IMG/VR virus record: IMGVR_UViG_3300035703_000205
Location: 1-38,389 of that record
Strand: one strand, 5' to 3'
Origin: a virus
Length of the DNA stretch: 38,389 nucleotides
Below the pieces are notes generated by a model that was not told the DNA's origin, ran no database searches, and worked only from the letters and a program-made list of their open reading frames with translations. A program made the translations under genes and the position numbers. Shown here piece by piece: positions 2,474 to 16,374 of the stretch (the first letter of the stretch is position 1; each line of letters begins with the position of its first letter).

Positions 2474-2903
2474 GGCGATATGCTCCGATCACGCGCTGCA
2501 AGAACCGACTATCGCCTCTATAGCGCGAAACACAGGATCCGATAACCTCTTCTGCGTGGAGCACAAAACCCGGCTCCGTCACAATCCCGCAATGCGTCGC
2601 GCGCCGCTTGCCCTTATAGAACCCCCACATATGCAAAACATCACCAGCGCGCACATCCGATAGATCGACCTGCACGCCGGTCGCGGCAAAATCCGCGAAT
2701 GAGCCCATGCCGCGCTCGATCTGGCTTTCCATCTCGTCATGGCGCGGTAGTTTGATCTTATAGACTTCTTTGTAAACCAAGCAGACAAGCCCCCAGCACG
2801 ACGCGCCTTCGCGCGTTGTCCCGTTCCATTTGAACGGGATCCCGACATAATTGTTCCACCAGTTAGAAGATGCCGGGGAAAGTAGACGGCGAGAAGGTTG
2901 CAC
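2466..2903 (-). CDS. NlpC/P60-type tail-tip peptidase (lambda K-like)
   Basis: Cysteine peptidase of the tail tip, expected to cut peptidoglycan peptides during DNA entry. The catalytic cysteine is in ASCWGLV (residue 36) and the histidine in ATHCGIV (about residue 103), the usual Cys...His arrangement. At 145 residues it is about the normal size for the single-domain phage form. The only good start is GTG at 2903, with GGAG ten bases upstream, overlapping the DUF1833 gene by about 40 bases. It lies between DUF1833 (L-like) and J, the standard order L-K-J. No lambda I-like gene is seen. Confidence 0.88.
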   Translation of the reverse strand: MQPSRRLLSPASSNWWNNYVGIPFKWNGTTREGASCWGLVCLVYKEVYKIKLPRHDEMESQIERGMGSFADFAATGVQVDLSDVRAGDVLHMWGFYKGKRRATHCGIVTEPGFVLHAEEVIGSCVSRYRGDSRFLQRVIGAYRLE

Positions 2904-3339
2904 TTGGGAAGGGCTCCGTGAGAAAATTGTCGATCGTGAGGTCGATGTTCATCGCGTCTGCGTTATAGCTGACCGACGCCGCGACCAGCCCCGACACGCT
3001 CTGCAAAATGACGTCTGGCGCGCTGGCATCAATGACTTCGAGTTTGAATGCGGGCCGCTCGCGCTGCCCGGCGAGCGTGCGTAGGATGTTGAGTTCGGTC
3101 GTGACATGCGACAGCGTGAGGCGCGCCCGCACTTGCAGTTCTGGGCTGTCTGGCGGGAGCGTCACGGCGAACGGAAAGGCGATATAGGTGTTTCCGCCGG
3201 ATGTGATGTTCTCTGTGTTGTTGACCAGATAAAACGTGTCCAGATCGCTGTGCGTGATCTCAAGCAGCACCAGAAACGCACGCGTCGTCGTCTGCGAGTT
3301 CACGGCGGTGATAACAGCGGTGGGAAGGGTGCGCGCCAT
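2863..3339 (-). CDS. DUF1833 minor tail protein (lambda L-like position)
   Basis: 158-residue tail-tip protein of the DUF1833 family. The diagnostic features are LLEITHSDLDTFYLVNN near the start, LPPDSPE in the middle and a FPSATFSPSTFPGIF ending. Family members sit between the tape measure and the NlpC/P60 peptidase in lambda-like tails and probably form part of the tip. The start is ATG at 3339, overlapping the TAA of the upstream gene as TAATG, with GGAGG about eight bases upstream. An upstream in-frame start would add 12 residues without a better ribosome site. The biochemical role is unknown. Confidence 0.82.
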   Translation of the reverse strand: MARTLPTAVITAVNSQTTTRAFLVLLEITHSDLDTFYLVNNTENITSGGNTYIAFPFAVTLPPDSPELQVRARLTLSHVTTELNILRTLAGQRERPAFKLEVIDASAPDVILQSVSGLVAASVSYNADAMNIDLTIDNFLTEPFPSATFSPSTFPGIF

Positions 3340-9061: not shown

Positions 9062-9348
9062 TAGACCACCTTTTTAGTTCGCGTCGGTTTAACCGGCGCG
9101 GGATCTGGGACATCTTCGGCGATCTCTTCGCCGAGGCCGTTTTCGCTTAGGTCGACTTCAAGGTTTCCGGGCGCATAATGGCGAACCTTACCCGCCCGGA
9201 ATAGGAGCGCGACCTTCTCTGCGGCAATGCCAAGGGCTTGCCAATCGAACGCTGCGCCGCGATTGAACCGACGTCCGTGAGCCACGAACGAGCGGAACGC
9301 GAAGAGCGGGTCCGACTTCTGGAAAGATCTCTGCTCGAGCTTCATCAT
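9061..9348 (-). CDS. Hypothetical protein between capsid and connector genes
   Basis: 95-residue protein, not recognised. It is basic in its first half and acidic with a Pro/Lys tail (PAPVKPTRTKKVV) at the end. Its start, one of two adjacent ATG codons (9348/9345), overlaps the stop of the major capsid gene, and its stop overlaps the connector start, so it belongs to the head operon. A role in head completion is only a guess from position. Confidence 0.65.
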   Translation of the reverse strand: MMKLEQRSFQKSDPLFAFRSFVAHGRRFNRGAAFDWQALGIAAEKVALLFRAGKVRHYAPGNLEVDLSENGLGEEIAEDVPDPAPVKPTRTKKVV

Positions 9349-10337
9349 GCGACGATCGCGTCCCAGAAGTAGCCCAGCGACGAGGAGACGACCTTGTGAT
9401 CGTAGTGCGAGCGAGCGCGCACGACGTCGGTGTCTTCTTCATCACGGCGCTTGGTGTCGATCACGAACCCGTACTCGTTCGTGCCGCCCAGATAGCCCGC
9501 CCACGAGAACGTGTAGCCTGCTGCGGGCGTCATGATGCCGGGCGATGGTGGGCGATAGGTCAACAAGCACTTCTTGCCCAGAATGAACGAGTGAGCGGCG
9601 GTGTCGCCCTCTGCTGCGGTGTTCTGGATGGCCTCGCCTACCATGACCTCATCAACTTCGAAGATCTGCGCAAGCAGGTTCAGCGAAGCGATCGAAGGCT
9701 GCGAGGTGGTCGCGCCGCCGTTGATCCGGCCTTGGATGTCTGGGTGATCGATCAATGCCGAATAGACCGGGCGGCCCATCGCCATGACGTTTGGCTTGAT
9801 GCCGGTCGAGCCGAGGATGAAGTCGATCCCGGTGCGCACGTTGCCGATAGGGTCGCCGTTGGTCGTGTCCGACCAGCGAATGACCTGATCAGTCGAAGGC
9901 GAGGACGCGACGCCGGTGATGTCCTTGCTCCAGATGCCGGTCGAGAAGAACGACGACGAGAAGTCGACTTCTTTTTGGATTAGCATCTGGTGGGTCGCCA
10001 GTTCTGCGGCTGCGCGTGCAGGATCCGCAGCTGGATCTGCGTTGGCGCGCACTTGGTCTGGGATCGGGATCGCGACGCCATATTCCTCGCAGAAATAGCT
10101 GTCGTTAGAGACGGCATAACCGACCTCAGACACGCGAGCACCAGCGGCGCGCTTCTTAGCGCCGTTGCGGTTGAAGAACGAGCGGTCGAACGTGAAGAAT
10201 TTGTCCGACTGCTTTTGCACTGGCACGTTCTGGAAAACGCGCGAGGAGATGAACGACCCCGGGTTTTGCAGCAGCGCGACAGAGATGTTAGTAAGGGCTG
10301 CGTCGATATGGAACGCGCCGACGTTAGGTTGTGGCAT
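9345..10337 (-). CDS. Major capsid protein
   Basis: 330-residue major capsid subunit. The segment order fits HK97-fold capsid proteins: N-terminal arm (residues 1-40), an extended E-loop region with KQSDKFFTFDRSFF, the long spine helix (AAAELATHQMLIQKEVDFSSSF), and P-domain strands with IKPNVMAMGRPVYSALIDHP and the late YLGGTNEYGFVIDTKRRDE. It is flanked by a DUF2190-type decoration gene and connector genes. No N-terminal scaffold domain is fused; scaffold is encoded separately upstream. The start at ATG 10337 has a GGGGG-type ribosome site. Confidence 0.88.
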   Translation of the reverse strand: MPQPNVGAFHIDAALTNISVALLQNPGSFISSRVFQNVPVQKQSDKFFTFDRSFFNRNGAKKRAAGARVSEVGYAVSNDSYFCEEYGVAIPIPDQVRANADPAADPARAAAELATHQMLIQKEVDFSSSFFSTGIWSKDITGVASSPSTDQVIRWSDTTNGDPIGNVRTGIDFILGSTGIKPNVMAMGRPVYSALIDHPDIQGRINGGATTSQPSIASLNLLAQIFEVDEVMVGEAIQNTAAEGDTAAHSFILGKKCLLTYRPPSPGIMTPAAGYTFSWAGYLGGTNEYGFVIDTKRRDEEDTDVVRARSHYDHKVVSSSLGYFWDAIVA

Positions 10338-10355: not shown

Positions 10356-10724
10356 TTATGCTGATGCGCCGCGAGGCTGGAATAGGATCTCGATGATCCG
10401 CCCAGCCGCGCCAGTTTCAAGAGCCGTGCCGAGGATGATATCCCCGGTCGCTGGATTTACTGCGGTTCCGCTGGCATCAGAAGCCACGGGCCCGCCACGG
10501 GTGACGACGCCACCGCAAACGACCTTGACCTTGCCAGCGATCGCCACGAGCGCAGCACGCCCAGCGGCTGCGGGAGCGTCTTGCAGAACGCCGTCCGCGT
10601 CGAGCCCGTCACCGGTGGGGTCAATTTGACCATCCGCTGCGACGGAAACGAAGTAGAACTGCTTCGTCGAGAGGTCTGCACCAGCCTCGAGCGTGACGCA
10701 GAGCATATTGTCTTGAGTTGCCAT
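10356..10724 (-). CDS. Capsid decoration / stabilising protein (DUF2190-like)
   Basis: 122-residue Ala/Gly-rich beta protein. The pattern of alternating strands with GADLSTKQFYFV, AAAGRAALVAIAG and GTALETGAAGRIIEILFQ matches DUF2190 capsid cement proteins, which bind the outside of the mature capsid. It sits directly before the major capsid gene. ATG at 10724 has a strong AAGGAGG seven bases upstream, in keeping with high expression. Confidence 0.8.
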   Translation of the reverse strand: MATQDNMLCVTLEAGADLSTKQFYFVSVAADGQIDPTGDGLDADGVLQDAPAAAGRAALVAIAGKVKVVCGGVVTRGGPVASDASGTAVNPATGDIILGTALETGAAGRIIEILFQPRGASA

Positions 10725-10735
10725 TCGAGGCCTCC

Positions 10736-11575
10736 TTACTGCGCGTGATTGCGTTTAGCGAAGAGCTCCGCGCCGCGTCCGGTCTTGGTCACTTCGGCGA
10801 ATGCCTTGGCGAACGTGACCTTCTTTTCGGCGGCGAAATCTTCTGCCATCTTGTTGAGTTCGGTCATGGCGTCGGTCTCTTGCGGAGCGACGCTGCCGAA
10901 CTCGCGGGTCAGCTTCGAGGCGAGAGCGTTCGCGCCTTTCAGCATAGCATGGGCTGCCTTGCGGACAGCTTCATCAGCGATCGCGTCGACCGCTTTGAGA
11001 ACTTCGCCCTTGGTCACGGCGTCGCCTGCCAAGTGCGGGATTTCGGCGCTCACGCGCTTGACCAGCTCTTCGGCTTCCAGCTTCTTTGTGACGGCTGCGA
11101 GTTCGTCAGCCTGCTTTGAGATCACCGACAGGACGCTCGCAGGGAGCGCGCTTTTCAGGATCGTCTCGCCACCGACTTCGATATAGTCTTCGGCTTTGCG
11201 CTTCTCGACAGTGACAGCCTCATCCGCAAGTTGGACGACATAGCCTTCGGTCTCAAGCGATTTTACAAGCGCGTCGACAGAACCTTCGAGGCGCTTGTTT
11301 GCCGCCTCGAGTTCCACGAGGCGCTTTTCTTGATCGGACATAGATTGACCCCCTTTGCCCGGATCGCCGGACGGGCCGGCCCCCTTGCTGCGCCTCATCT
11401 GCGCAACCTGTTTGCGGGCGTCGTCCTCTGACATCCCTCCCGCAATCAGTTCTTTGATTTTGTCTTCGTCTGGCATCATGTCGCGCTTGAACATCACGAC
11501 ACGCGCAGCCGGGTTTGCGGGTTCGTCGACCAGCGAGAGCTCGATCAGTTCCAGATCCGTCAGATTATACGGCAT
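10736..11575 (-). CDS. Scaffold protein carrying the C-terminal strand of the capsid protease
   Basis: 279-residue Lys/Glu/Ala-rich, coiled-coil protein between protease and decoration genes: the expected head scaffold. Helices start around residue 95 (QEKRLVELEAANKRLEGS) and continue to the C-terminus. Its first 35 residues are different: LTDLELIELSLVDEPANP resembles the conserved C-terminal part of XkdF/S78-type proteases (EISLV..PANP.A). The preceding gene stops just before this part, in another frame, with an 11-base overlap (ATG 11575, TAA 11565). Either the two are coupled separate products, or a +1 shift makes a protease-scaffold fusion; the second would mirror protease/scaffold fusions known in other phages. 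Confidence 0.75.
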   Translation of the reverse strand: MPYNLTDLELIELSLVDEPANPAARVVMFKRDMMPDEDKIKELIAGGMSEDDARKQVAQMRRSKGAGPSGDPGKGGQSMSDQEKRLVELEAANKRLEGSVDALVKSLETEGYVVQLADEAVTVEKRKAEDYIEVGGETILKSALPASVLSVISKQADELAAVTKKLEAEELVKRVSAEIPHLAGDAVTKGEVLKAVDAIADEAVRKAAHAMLKGANALASKLTREFGSVAPQETDAMTELNKMAEDFAAEKKVTFAKAFAEVTKTGRGAELFAKRNHAQ

Positions 11576-13016
11576 TGCGTTTCCCCATGCCTCCGATGCT
11601 AAAGGCGGCGAGTTCGCCGCTCTTAACTCTGCTCCATACACTATCATCGTGCACTTTCATAGCCACGATCCACCCTTCCATTGCAGAGTGCACGCCCAAC
11701 GCCTCGCCCAGCGCCTTTGTGAGCGGGAAGGAGTGAATAACCTCCCCGATCTTGCCGCCTTCGTGCATCGCTTTGGCAGTGCGAACGTCGGCCATAAAGT
11801 TGTCGGCGGCCTTGGTCATCACCTCCGCCGAGATGATGTCGCCCTGCCGGTCAATCATCGGCTTGCCATCGATCGACACGACCGACGCCCAGCCCCAAAC
11901 GATGCGCGCTTCGTCGTCGATCTTGATGATCTTAGCCGCGCGCTTTTCCATGCGCGCGTCGATGATCGCGCTGATCGCGGCGTCGATCACGGCTTCGATC
12001 ATCTCGCCCGTCGGATCTTCGACCTCTTCGCCTTCTGGCGACATCATGCCCGCCGTGCCCACCATGTCGAGGTAGTCCTCATGCGTCGCCCCGGGCATAT
12101 AGAACACCTGCCCGTCTGGCCCTTCGGTCATATGCGCGGCGAGCCCCAGCCCGAGCTGTTGCGCGCGCTGCACTGCTTCGATCGACGTCGTGAACACGTC
12201 ATCCGAGATCTGCCGCTTTTCCATCTGGTTCATTTTCGTCATCTCCGAGACTGAGGTTCCGCTTTCCCACATCCGGCACGACCAGTAACGCGCCGAGGTC
12301 TTGTCGGTCGCCGTGTCGCAAGAGTGCCGCGAGCGGAAGTTGGCGCGGGCTTGGGGGTCATCACGGCGGATCTCCATCTTGGGATCGCCGAACGTCACTT
12401 TCTTGGTCTTGTCGCCGTCCTTGACGTAAACGCCGAACTTCTTGCTCGCGCCAGCTGGGAGGCGGAACGGCTGGTCAAGTTCGACCTCGCGCCCCTGATA
12501 GTCGGCTTTCTCGACGCCCCGGGTCGACATAGGATGTTTTTCTGGCAACAGATCCGTGTCGTGCTTGCCCGACCGAAACCGGCCATCGCGGATGGCGCGC
12601 AGGAAATTGTTGACCCGCGCCATAGCCCACTGCTCCGGGGAGCTTACACTGGGCCGCACGCTGCCCGGGTTCGTGCGATACGCGCCGATCCCCCGGTCAT
12701 AGACCTGCCGCAGCATATCGACAGTCACGCGCCCCTTGTCGCCGTCCTCTGCGTTGTGCGCCTCGACCTTGGCGCGCAGCGTGTCCGTTGACACCTTCTC
12801 GAGCGCCTCGTCGGCCTTCTCGATGTAAACGCCGTCCTTGCCCTTTGTGTAGCCTGCGCTCTCGATCGCAGCATACGCCGCGCCGAATGCCCGGCCCTCC
12901 TGATAGCCCCGCTCGATGCTGTCGTTGAACACGCCGCGCCAGATTGATCGCGCCTTATCGCTGGTCAGCACGCGCTTCACCGCGCCCGGTAGATCGTCAT
13001 TGGTTTGATAGGGCAT
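11565..13016 (-). CDS. ChaB-XkdF capsid maturation protease
   Basis: 483-residue multidomain protein. Residues 1-60 (MPYQTNDDLPGAVKRVL... to ...AAIESAGYTK) are a ChaB-like domain. Residues about 130-265 contain VNNFLRAIRDGRFRSGKHDTD and a Cys-bearing segment RHSCDTATDKTSARYWSC. The C-terminal 150 residues form an XkdF-like protease domain: WGWASVVSIDGKPMIDRQGD, a candidate catalytic His in KAMHEGG and Ser in LAAFSIGG. It should process capsid and scaffold subunits. The last conserved strand expected after FSIGG is missing here and appears at the start of the next ORF. The start is ATG 13016 with AAGGA upstream; repeat element A lies just upstream. Confidence 0.82.
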   Translation of the reverse strand: MPYQTNDDLPGAVKRVLTSDKARSIWRGVFNDSIERGYQEGRAFGAAYAAIESAGYTKGKDGVYIEKADEALEKVSTDTLRAKVEAHNAEDGDKGRVTVDMLRQVYDRGIGAYRTNPGSVRPSVSSPEQWAMARVNNFLRAIRDGRFRSGKHDTDLLPEKHPMSTRGVEKADYQGREVELDQPFRLPAGASKKFGVYVKDGDKTKKVTFGDPKMEIRRDDPQARANFRSRHSCDTATDKTSARYWSCRMWESGTSVSEMTKMNQMEKRQISDDVFTTSIEAVQRAQQLGLGLAAHMTEGPDGQVFYMPGATHEDYLDMVGTAGMMSPEGEEVEDPTGEMIEAVIDAAISAIIDARMEKRAAKIIKIDDEARIVWGWASVVSIDGKPMIDRQGDIISAEVMTKAADNFMADVRTAKAMHEGGKIGEVIHSFPLTKALGEALGVHSAMEGWIVAMKVHDDSVWSRVKSGELAAFSIGGMGKRNAV

Positions 13017-13193: not shown

Positions 13194-14027
13194 TCAATCG
13201 ACATCTTCGATCCACCCATAGAAGCCCGCCGATGCGGTCGCCGCCTTGTCTGTCGTGACGCGAAACCCGATGATCGCGCCGGCTGGAAATGCCGCCAGCG
13301 CGCCATCCGCGAGCGCCGTTGTGTTGTCTTGCAGTTCGATCGTGCCCTGTCGAAACAGCATCCCGACGTCCTCGAAGCGGTCGACGCTCCCGTCGAGGTT
13401 CCCGATCACTGATGCAACGAATGAGATTTGCACCTTGGCGGCGGAGGTTCCCGAGTTCGCGCCAGCAAATAGCGAATGAACGATCAGCCGCTTGCCATCT
13501 GGGACGCGGAAGGCGGTGCTGCGCGTGCCGCGCGCGCCAGCATCAAGCAGCTTATAGCGAGTGTCGCTGTTCGTGACAGTGATGTCGCCGACAGCGCCTT
13601 TTACAGATCCAAATGTCAGCCCATGCAGATCGCCGACCCAGCGCACATTGGTCGCCGTCGTCAGCACGGGCGTCGTGCCGTTCATCGTCACGATCTCGCT
13701 CTGCGGGTTCAGGTTCGCGTCGAGATAGTTGAACCGCAGCGTTCGAACGCCCGTGCCTGCCGCGCTGTCCTGCGCGCTGGTCGAAACCAGCGTCATCTGC
13801 ACGCCGCCTGCGGGCGCGACGGACGGGTCTTTCACAGTCGAGCCGGGCCATATCATAATATCTGTCACCGCGCCGCTGGTCGTCAGCGTCCCGGTGACAG
13901 CGATCGACTGCGCGCCCTCGACGCGTCCCCGGGCGATCTCGACCTGCTGCGTGAACATCAGTCGCCAGATCCGCTGCGACCAGTCGCGCACGGGCTTGAT
14001 CGTCTTTGTGTAGCCGGTTTCCGTCAT
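13194..14027 (-). CDS. Hypothetical virion protein between MuF and protease genes
   Basis: 277-residue protein, not recognised. It is beta-rich with Thr/Gly/Ser/Ala repeats, has no signal or membrane segment, and ends GFRVTTDKAATASAGFYGWIED. The composition resembles head fibre or decoration proteins. ATG 14027 overlaps the stop of the preceding small ORF (ATGA), so it is co-translated with the head genes; its stop lies eight bases from the end of element A. A structural role is inferred only from composition and position. Confidence 0.65.
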   Translation of the reverse strand: MTETGYTKTIKPVRDWSQRIWRLMFTQQVEIARGRVEGAQSIAVTGTLTTSGAVTDIMIWPGSTVKDPSVAPAGGVQMTLVSTSAQDSAAGTGVRTLRFNYLDANLNPQSEIVTMNGTTPVLTTATNVRWVGDLHGLTFGSVKGAVGDITVTNSDTRYKLLDAGARGTRSTAFRVPDGKRLIVHSLFAGANSGTSAAKVQISFVASVIGNLDGSVDRFEDVGMLFRQGTIELQDNTTALADGALAAFPAGAIIGFRVTTDKAATASAGFYGWIEDVD

Positions 14028-14242
14028 AGCACCTTGCCTTTTTCTGGATCCGGAACGGAGACCCCGCGAATGAAATCTGCGTCGGTTATCGGGCTCCCGC
14101 GCAGGATCGCCCGGCCCATTGTTTCGGGGAGTGCGTAATATTCAGCATCGCTCATAGACCGCATATCCGGGAGATCACCGGGGAACCGCTCGATGTAGCG
14201 CTCAATCGCGGTTCGAAATCTCACAGTAAATGCGTCCATCAT
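14024..14242 (-). CDS. Small ORF downstream of the MuF-zincin gene
   Basis: 72-residue protein (or 71 from the second ATG at 14239), not recognised. It has charged helical segments (FRTAIERYIERFPG) and MSDAEYYALPETMGRAILRGSP. The start overlaps the stop of the MuF-zincin gene as ATGATG and its stop overlaps the next start, so translation is coupled on both sides. Being strictly coupled to a putative effector domain makes an inhibitor or partner role possible, but nothing in the sequence proves it. Confidence 0.65.
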   Translation of the reverse strand: MMDAFTVRFRTAIERYIERFPGDLPDMRSMSDAEYYALPETMGRAILRGSPITDADFIRGVSVPDPEKGKVL

Positions 14243-16374
14243 CTGAGCGCCTCCTCAACCATTGCTTCAAACATCTTCGACGTGCGCGGGAAGAACCGCA
14301 CGAAAACCGCGTATTGAGTTGCATTTCCGCTAGTCCACGCCTCGAACCAGTTTGCAAATAGCTGGGCGCTTGTCCCAAGTCCGTATTTTCGAGACGATGA
14401 TCTATAAGTGAAATCTGATCTTTTGCCGACAAGGTTCGCTCTATCTGATAGAGTAAGGAACTCTGCATAGTAATCTTTTTTATGCCCAAAGTTGTATCCA
14501 ATGTCTTGAAGCGTCGCCGCTCCTATGCTGTCAGATAATCCGGCGAGCGGGGATCCTCTCTTGTATGAGGCAAGCTGCGTTAAGAGCGTCCAATGATCGC
14601 GCTGGTCGTAGGATACGAGAAATTCAACAGCGTTGCGCACCGCCCGGAAGGTCTCGCGGGAAGTATCCGGGATTGCGCCGGGCTCTAGTTGCAGATCCGG
14701 GCAAACTTTCTGCGCCTGTTTGAAGTCCAATCCGCGCTTTGCAAATTCAGCTTCGAGCTTTCCATAAACTGCTGCGGCGCTGTAGCGATCCTCCAAGCCG
14801 AGATCATCCCGCAGTTTTTGCTGGGCCGCGATCACGCGCTCTTCTATACCTGCCGCCGCTTGTTGCGGTGTTGCTGTCCACCCTGTCGGGGCCGTCCTTC
14901 TGAGCGATGCTTCTAGATCTTTAGCGTCCTCCGCAATAGCTTGGAGGGCACGGCGAGACGCGACCCAGCCGTAGTTGTCAGTGAAATCCTGCGGTGCGCC
15001 TTCTTTTGTGAGGAAATACCTATCAATCACGGCATCAATATGATGCCCGTATTCGTGCCGCATGGTTGTTTGATAATCTTCTGAAGCGGTGTCGCGGTTT
15101 GACATCGCAATTCGAAGAGATGTCCCCTCATGCCACGCCCCACTGGCAACAAATTGGACGCCGCCCTTCAGATCCCCTAGCTTCTCGATCACTGCCATGC
15201 GATCGGGATCTGTATCCATGAACGCAGGCGCGACGTTGAGGCGCTCGTCGATGGTCTTATTCGCCCAGACCCGCCGCCGCCGTTCTTCGTCAGTCATCGC
15301 CGGGAGAGGAGCGGGAGCCGGACGCGGCGGCGGGGGCGGCGCGACCACCGCTCCCGGGGAGGGCGGAAGCAGGTCGCGAGAGATGATGCGCGCGAAGACC
15401 GCGCACCGGCATTGGATGGTGTTCGCGGCAAGCGCGCTGGGATCCCCGGGATAGAGGATAGGGCCGAGCGGGCTTGCGAAGGTTTCCGCCTGCCCGACGC
15501 CGCGCGGGTTGATCTGCGGGATCTGGACGTGCGAGTTCCGAACGTGCCCGTCGTTGGTGTTGATCCACGTCCTGCGCACCTGCCGGATGTCGATCTGCCC
15601 TTTGTTGATCATGTCCTGAAAGAGCTCCCACTGCGCGCCCTGCACGGCCCGGATGCTCTCTGTGCGCGCGATGACGTTCGCCCGGTATTTGACATATCGG
15701 TCGCGATACCGGTCGACCAGTGAGCGGATCTGCGCGTCGGTCAGCGCTTTGTCGTTGGCGATTGCGCGCCCGACGGATCCATCACTGCGCCGGTCGCGCA
15801 GCTTGCGCTCCAGCGCCTCCGGGTCGAGCGCGCGCAGCATCCGCTCATAGTTTGACACCGCCGCTTCCTGCCGCCGCGTCAGCCCGATGGAACCCCTGAT
15901 CTGGCGCGCAATGGCGAACGGGTCATCGCCCGCTGTCAGCCCGCGCTGGAGCACCTGCCGGATCGTGTCGCGCGTCGTCTGGTCGATCTCGCGGATCCGC
16001 GTCGACGTCATCGTGATGGCGAACTGCTCAAGACGCGGGTTCAGCCCGACGGCGATCTCGAAGTCCGCCTGCGCGCCGTTGATCACGCCCTGCGTTGTGC
16101 TGGTGGCCTTCACGCCTGCGAGGACGGCCTGCTCGATCGCCGCGCCGTAGGGTTGCCATTCGGTCGACGTGAAGTGACCTGAGAAGGCGTTCTCGAGCGA
16201 GGTGAAGTCGCGCCGCTCGATCAGCCGCGCGATCTGCTCGGCCGGGACGCGGGTCCGGATCGCCTCGATCGCCGCGATGAACGCGCGCGCAATTCGCGGC
16301 TCCATGCGTTCTGCCGCCCGCAAGAACACGGCCACGGCGTCGGACGCGGTGATCTTGCGGATGGCGGCGTTCAT
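14239..16374 (-). CDS. MuF-type minor head protein fused to a zincin metallopeptidase-like domain
   Basis: 711 residues. The N-terminal part to about residue 325 is a phage head morphogenesis (SPP1 gp7/Mu F-like) domain ending in the NTIQCRCAVF motif, found next to the portal; such proteins enter the capsid in few copies and can be ejected with DNA. A Pro-rich linker (VVAPPPPPRPAPAPLP) follows. The C-terminal 350 residues carry RHEYGHHID, a HExxH zinc site with His440, Glu441 and His444, and a candidate third ligand in YYAEFLTL or NWFEAW. The 3' half is visibly more AT-rich than the 5' half (for example 23 G/C of 60 at 14401-14460), suggesting separate origin. Possible roles are an ejected effector or head-maturation protease. 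Confidence 0.82.
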   Translation of the reverse strand: MNAAIRKITASDAVAVFLRAAERMEPRIARAFIAAIEAIRTRVPAEQIARLIERRDFTSLENAFSGHFTSTEWQPYGAAIEQAVLAGVKATSTTQGVINGAQADFEIAVGLNPRLEQFAITMTSTRIREIDQTTRDTIRQVLQRGLTAGDDPFAIARQIRGSIGLTRRQEAAVSNYERMLRALDPEALERKLRDRRSDGSVGRAIANDKALTDAQIRSLVDRYRDRYVKYRANVIARTESIRAVQGAQWELFQDMINKGQIDIRQVRRTWINTNDGHVRNSHVQIPQINPRGVGQAETFASPLGPILYPGDPSALAANTIQCRCAVFARIISRDLLPPSPGAVVAPPPPPRPAPAPLPAMTDEERRRRVWANKTIDERLNVAPAFMDTDPDRMAVIEKLGDLKGGVQFVASGAWHEGTSLRIAMSNRDTASEDYQTTMRHEYGHHIDAVIDRYFLTKEGAPQDFTDNYGWVASRRALQAIAEDAKDLEASLRRTAPTGWTATPQQAAAGIEERVIAAQQKLRDDLGLEDRYSAAAVYGKLEAEFAKRGLDFKQAQKVCPDLQLEPGAIPDTSRETFRAVRNAVEFLVSYDQRDHWTLLTQLASYKRGSPLAGLSDSIGAATLQDIGYNFGHKKDYYAEFLTLSDRANLVGKRSDFTYRSSSRKYGLGTSAQLFANWFEAWTSGNATQYAVFVRFFPRTSKMFEAMVEEALR

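Follow-up and report, generated by a model that had tools for sequence, protein, structure and literature searches.

Does a phage prohead protease gene that stops short of the last strand of its core reflect a sequence error, a programmed frameshift or an enzyme that is genuinely made in two pieces? The question is raised by a virus record (38,389 bases), analysed over its whole length and called the window here. The XkdF-type protease gene of this record (ORF1) ends 8 residues past the FSIGG motif, and the strand that belongs beyond that point, LTDLELIELSLVDEPANP, forms the opening of the following open reading frame (ORF2), in the +1 frame relative to ORF1. The original prediction offered all three explanations. 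The analysis favours, with a probability of about 0.68, a prohead protease that is genuinely split and that would receive its last core strand in trans from the scaffold, with proteolysis thereby tied to assembly.

Coordinates are those of the window unless another contig is named, and all features given lie on its minus strand. A Mu-F-like gene (head morphogenesis protein, 14239-16374) and a second gene (13194-14027) precede ORF1, the XkdF-type (Peptidase_S78_2) prohead protease of 483 aa at 11565..13016. ORF2, a presumed scaffold of 279 aa, extends from an ATG at 11575 to a stop that ends at 10736 (10736..11575). It is followed by a capsid cement-like protein (10356..10724), with a weak match to PF22758 and a match to phrog_673, a family named head scaffolding protein (E-value = 7e-20), and by the major capsid protein (9345..10337; phrog_1005, E-value = 1.2e-84; Phage_cap_E). 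The C-terminal end of ORF1 is ...GELAAFSIGGMGKRNAV and the N-terminal start of ORF2 is MPYNLTDLELIELSLVDEPANPAARVVMFKR. The two genes overlap by 11 nt, ATGCCGTATAA (11565..11575), consisting of the ORF2 start codon (11573-11575) through the ORF1 stop codon (11565-11567). If TAAT is read as a single step, ORF1 and ORF2 are joined as ...KRNAV-N-LTDLELIELS... The Mu-F-like protein is also extended at its C-terminus by a long additional part, in which a zinc peptidase-like HExxH motif (MRHEYGHHIDAV) occurs; similar C-terminal parts are present upstream of the protease in loci L005, L012 and L023.

ORF1 residues 361-480 (11577..11936, as derived from the residue numbers) match PF14550 (XkdF) with an E-value of 1.5e-16 and 61 bits, above the curated cut-off of 24. 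The match spans model positions 3-124 of 126 and reaches nearly to the end of ORF1. The conserved His and Ser of the XkdF catalytic site are invariant in 9/9 rows of an alignment of split proteases; they correspond to His418 (codon 11763..11765) and to Ser473 in FSIGG (codon 11598..11600), the putative catalytic residues by homology. The N-terminal side of ORF1 shows a match to DUF5824 and a match to ChaB that is below the cut-off. In the canonical single-chain S78 and S78_2 proteases the strand after the serine motif is part of the same polypeptide, but here it sits in ORF2.

A well-conserved block at ORF1 residues ~168-250 (12267-12515), matched by phrog_7595 at residues 169-250, is behind many phage and IMG/VR matches that lie outside the protease domain (loci L028-L080). 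Altogether 324 phage records were matched, most often from Salinibacter and Vibrio, many of them by way of this block; the protease domain was matched by 194 phage records, of which 15 were examined. Two proteins with a Pfam assignment of Peptidase_S78_2, RDJL Phi 1 gp71 (L123) and 9NA gp37 (L124), carry the RefSeq name DNA methyltransferase, as does phrog_1530, and this naming of the two proteins is a probable annotation error.

ORF2 has no Pfam family above the cut-off and no solved relative by sequence search. Its residues 3-33 show similarity to PF04586 (Peptidase_S78) at model positions 129-159 of 165, with an E-value of 0.017 and 15.7 bits (curated cut-off 21). ORF2 also matches the C-terminal part of the fused protease family phrog_80 (head maturation protease; positions 353-561 of 607, E-value = 9.8e-6) and phrog_24785, to which no function is assigned (E-value = 1.8e-16). 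The natural fusions TunaTartare, Peregrin and L319 carry FSIGG and an ELSLVD-like strand within one chain. Likewise, fused chains of Streptomyces and Rhodococcus phages and of IMG/VR relatives show FSIGG, a linker of ~20-25 residues and then LxELSxVDxPxN. By sequence comparison the N-terminal strand of ORF2 (residues 5-17, LTDLELIELSLVD; 11525..11563) is homologous to the strand of these fused proteases, which bear out the original assignment of the strand to the protease.

The division of the gene was followed in relatives. With ORF2 as query, 40 loci were found in IMG/VR, and all 40 keep the junction, with TAA as the ORF1 stop in 39 and TGA in L117. Together with the coordinates and the PF14550 and PF04586 matches, these loci confirm that the protease ends after FSIGG and that the strand lies in the next open reading frame, at +1 with an 11-nt overlap in the window. 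A wider survey covered 299 loci and the window, 300 sequences in all, of which 240 have the protease domain; ORF1 is complete in 238, and the other two, where it ran off the end, were left out of the count. The split is found in 228 of the 238 loci, 3 are fused and 7 lack a recognised strand. Since some contigs occur twice among the loci, counts are given by cluster at 80% identity: 52 of 62 clusters are split, and 7 without a recognised motif were left outside the split count. Split-type queries supplied most of the members, so these figures are no census of split versus fused forms. In 52/52 split clusters ORF1 runs on for 7-12 residues past SIGG, and at the start of ORF2 the same 52 clusters retain E in 50, S in 51, V in 52, D in 44 and the last K in 51.

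The two halves are annotated as separate genes in isolated phages: CRP-6 (gp55/gp54), RHph_TM3_3_9 of Rhizobium, RDJL Phi 1 (gp71/gp72), 9NA (gp37/gp38), KPP23 (ORF84/85), Vibrio 1.032.O and Mulvp2. The genuine split, one of the three explanations first proposed, is upheld by these pairs, and relatives with two separate genes are also what the original prediction named as its refutation; division of the prohead protease domain at the active-site hairpin is real and widespread. No description of it was found in the open-access PMC literature, a scope that leaves most subscription journals outside. In a tree built on few columns, neither the split rows nor the fused rows group as a single clade, the split state needing 5 changes and the fused state 2; a single origin of the split is therefore not shown.

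Other arrangements were also seen. In L237, L259 and L128, ORF2 is well downstream of the ORF1 stop, with ~100-400 nt of other sequence between them; in L237 (about positions 2880-3310 of that locus), ~400 nt of unrelated sequence separates the protease stop from the strand-bearing open reading frame. Three of the loci without a recognised motif, L127, L133 and L135 (RcZahn, RHph_Y1_11 and KarBoss), display a second two-gene layout, in which ORF1 extends ~80-90 residues past the serine motif and has GHxH-type repeats in the extension. Their ORF2 opens with a SMVKRGANRIPF-like strand, and by eye a related strand (SMVKRGANR, SIVPKGANR) apparently forms this opening. No strand was seen by eye downstream of the protease in L241, L277 and L299. 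Contigs assigned to the archaeon Candidatus Methanoperedens and to Candidatus Contendobacter (L297, L298) contain split pairs as well, possibly as proviruses.

Sequence searches against solved structures gave no significant match, and no Foldseek match reached E <= 0.001, the best being HCMV protease at 0.039. An AlphaFold2 model of the joined ORF1 and ORF2 reading (55 rows; pLDDT 84.2, pTM 0.70) has strands at 127-137 and 140-152, the second of which is from ORF2. The model of the natural fusion L319 (20 rows; pLDDT 71.8, pTM 0.67) has strands at 119-134 and 139-155. Both place the ORF2-type strand in a hairpin with the serine strand, a hairpin that is easily formed in joined chains. When aligned with solved structures, T4 gp21 is the top match for the joined model (Z = 12.8, rmsd 2.1, 121 aligned residues) and for L319 (Z = 11.4, rmsd 3.6, 133 aligned), followed by herpesvirus proteases with Z up to 8.7 and 6.4, respectively. 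Thus the joined model displays the gp21/assemblin fold.

Covariation between ORF1 and ORF2 gives weak support to pairing in this hairpin. When only variable columns are used (entropy >=0.5, 0.8 or 1.0), the register i+j = 279 ranks first of 122, 111 and 91 antiparallel registers, and under the strictest filter it scores 0.93 vs 0.88 for the next. With all columns, hairpin registers lead as well, but conserved columns inflate this result (pairs of conserved columns show 1.4-2.6 z). The unfiltered version, with the hairpin register far ahead, was rejected as partly an artefact of conserved columns, and only the filtered version is used for that reason.

The models also bear on a third catalytic residue. 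His157 of HCMV is named as a catalytic site in PDB titles. Several rows align residue 160 of the joined model with HCMV 169; counted without gaps, this places Glu148 (Glu12 of ORF2; codon 11540..11542) opposite His157. Residue 162 of L319 pairs with HCMV 168, which puts Glu151 opposite His157; L319 rows that end at 241 were unusable. The mapping uses only the first and last aligned residues. Applied to other herpesvirus proteases, it points to VZV 139, HSV-2 148, PRV 128, KSHV 134 and EBV 139, the catalytic histidines of these enzymes, and on T4 it gives 165 or 164, a shift of one residue between the two models. Ser and Glu are 19 residues apart in the joined ORF1 and ORF2. The Glu is not universal, as 9NA has Phe and the fused psiM100 has Thr at this position, and the more distant RcZahn, RHph_Y1_11 and KarBoss have, by eye, a hydrophobic residue. 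Thus the mapping supports a third catalytic position on the presumed scaffold but gives no proof of it. That a large group of tailed phages divides the triad between two proteins, with His and Ser on the protease, the acid Glu12 on the scaffold, and activation by the scaffold strand, is a tentative proposal, to which we give somewhat less than an even chance.

The preferred reading can be set out as follows. ORF1 and ORF2 are separate genes for a protease of the herpesvirus and T4 gp21 type, divided right after the serine strand. ORF1 would give the protease core with His418 and Ser473, and ORF2, initiated at its own ATG in the region of the ORF1 stop, would give a scaffold that has the final strand of the protease core as its first ~20 residues. 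Because ORF2 has its own start, the scaffold can be overproduced. The scaffold strand would most likely pair with the FSIGG strand and set Glu12 next to the Ser and His, which would complete both fold and active site in trans. As the missing strand is carried by the scaffold, the enzyme is probably complete only on meeting it. The protease would then be recruited into the growing scaffold core and turned on there. If each protease is active only on accepting the strand of a scaffold subunit, then assembly itself is the activating switch.

It is also possible, although we consider it unlikely, that the split is genuine and ORF1 is a complete enzyme alone, the ORF2 N-terminus being a docking tag or a cleavage site left from a fused ancestor. 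The nearly full coverage of the curated PF14550 model by ORF1 fits this explanation. Variation of the third catalytic residue in the superfamily also fits, SPN3US gp245 having H77, S153 and D178 (PMC5694885). However, the strand lies inside the domain in the natural fusions and in the alignments with T4 gp21 and herpesvirus proteases, the E, S and V of the strand are retained in 50-52 of 52 clusters, and in a second paper (PMC7411985) a truncation in SPN3US that loses the third residue was expected to be inactive.

The scaffold function of ORF2 is presumed from gene position and weak family matches. It is improbable that ORF2 is instead a separate protease cofactor or a structural protein, a reading to which the want of a Pfam family above the cut-off and of a solved relative lends itself. 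Against it, the ORF2 counterpart is located between the protease and capsid genes in the split pairs of the annotated phages examined, and the match of ORF2 to phrog_80 falls in the C-terminal part of that head maturation protease family.

A programmed +1 frameshift at GTA-T-AAT, which would produce a protease-scaffold fusion and set its ratio to the free products, has very little chance of being correct. ORF2 is indeed at +1 here with an open overlap, and in 14/28 distinct junctions of the window's own 80% cluster (58 loci, 28 distinct junctions of 160 nt) a TAG is present in the ORF2 frame 4 codons before the ATG, the frame being open from that TAG onward. However, neither the relative frame nor a shift site is kept among relatives. 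For 49 clusters an ORF2 start was assigned, by a rule that may have erred in some cases; their overlaps modulo 3 are 1 in 32, 2 in 13 and 0 in 4. By cluster, the overlap is 4 nt in 14, 1 nt in 11, 8 nt in 7 and 11 nt in 3, the remaining lengths being found once or twice. The frame differs even inside one cluster: CRP-6-like proteins that are >=80% like its first member have overlaps of both 1 nt and 8 nt. A shift from GTA to TAT would, by reasoning, be a poor slip, and the codon that precedes the ORF1 stop is variable in the 28 junctions (GTT 18, GTA 6, ATA 2, ATT 2). Because the frame varies, even within one 80% cluster, and the halves can be separated by other DNA, as in L237, L259 and L128, a common frameshift mechanism is excluded, and the original suggestion of frameshift control does not stand in general. 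A frameshift private to this phage has little in its favour.

ORF2 displays start signals of its own, which likewise speak against the frameshift. The mean anti-Shine-Dalgarno energy before the ORF2 start is -7.5 kcal/mol vs -3.1 within ORF1 (49 clusters; Wilcoxon p = 4.6e-11), and in 24/49 clusters the ORF2 site is at or under the 5th percentile of its own gene. The window has a Shine-Dalgarno-like stretch, GGAGGCATGGGG (11583..11594), within ORF1; its best duplex is -9.5 kcal/mol vs an ORF1 mean of -3.7, the 8th percentile of its own gene. The site is weak or absent at some loci, e.g. L252 and L251. DNA resembling GAGGAGGT encodes the acidic ORF1 tail (EEVE, EDVE) of many relatives, and thus the tail doubles as a ribosome site. 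The ORF1 stop is retained in 28/28 junctions of the window's cluster (TAA 27, TGA 1). The ORF2 ATG arises through an Asn codon that is AAT in 28/28 junctions vs 19% (44/236) of Asn codons in these genes, and T is in all junctions the last base of the ORF2 codon that supplies the ORF1 stop, against a background of TTT in 17% of Phe and TAT in 36% of Tyr codons. This bias is given without a probability because the junctions are related sequences. The ORF2 start and the ORF1 stop look to be under selection, and the two genes are probably translationally coupled.

A one-base sequencing or assembly error that splits a normal fused gene, suggested by the single skipped T that joins the frames, is excluded because all 40 loci with ORF2 relatives keep the junction, and the split loci (217 from IMG/VR, 8 phage records and 2 genome contigs, besides the window) have differing junction sequences and include isolated, independently sequenced phages.

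How prohead proteases are recruited into the procapsid and kept inactive before assembly is still unsettled. A T4 review (PMC9026906) calls gp21 autocleavage a major gap and considers targeting and activation possible. Phages of several hosts share a natural split at the active-site hairpin, which offers a handle on these questions through a scaffold peptide of ~25 residues, and the pair is a ready-made split protease. The split may also be the reason that these enzymes escape annotation, as with RDJL Phi 1 gp71 and 9NA gp37.

Of the known systems, the fused PF14550/PF04586 proteases (psiM100 ORF12, Streptomyces and Rhodococcus phages) have a protease core with a conserved His and FSIGG-type serine; an [LI]xE[LI]SxVDxPAxxxA-type strand and a long tail, acidic or coiled, come next, and the capsid gene follows immediately. 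In them one chain contains all of these parts, whereas here the chain stops 7-12 residues past SIGG. T4 gp21 and herpesvirus assemblin share the fold of the joined model by structural alignment but have three catalytic residues in a single chain, the third of which would be elsewhere here. Lambda C/Nu3 and herpes UL26/UL26.5 are nested genes, in which the scaffold starts within the protease gene or at its end and the full-length product consists of protease and scaffold in frame; the scaffold of the present pair has its own start as well, but no full-length product is encoded. Listeria phage PSA uses a programmed +1 frameshift and also has overlapping frames in head genes, but in the present case frame and site are not conserved among relatives. 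The serine protease HCV NS3 is completed by a strand of another polypeptide, NS4A, which carries no catalytic residue; the strand from a second polypeptide is the likeness to the present pair, although fold and virus are unrelated.
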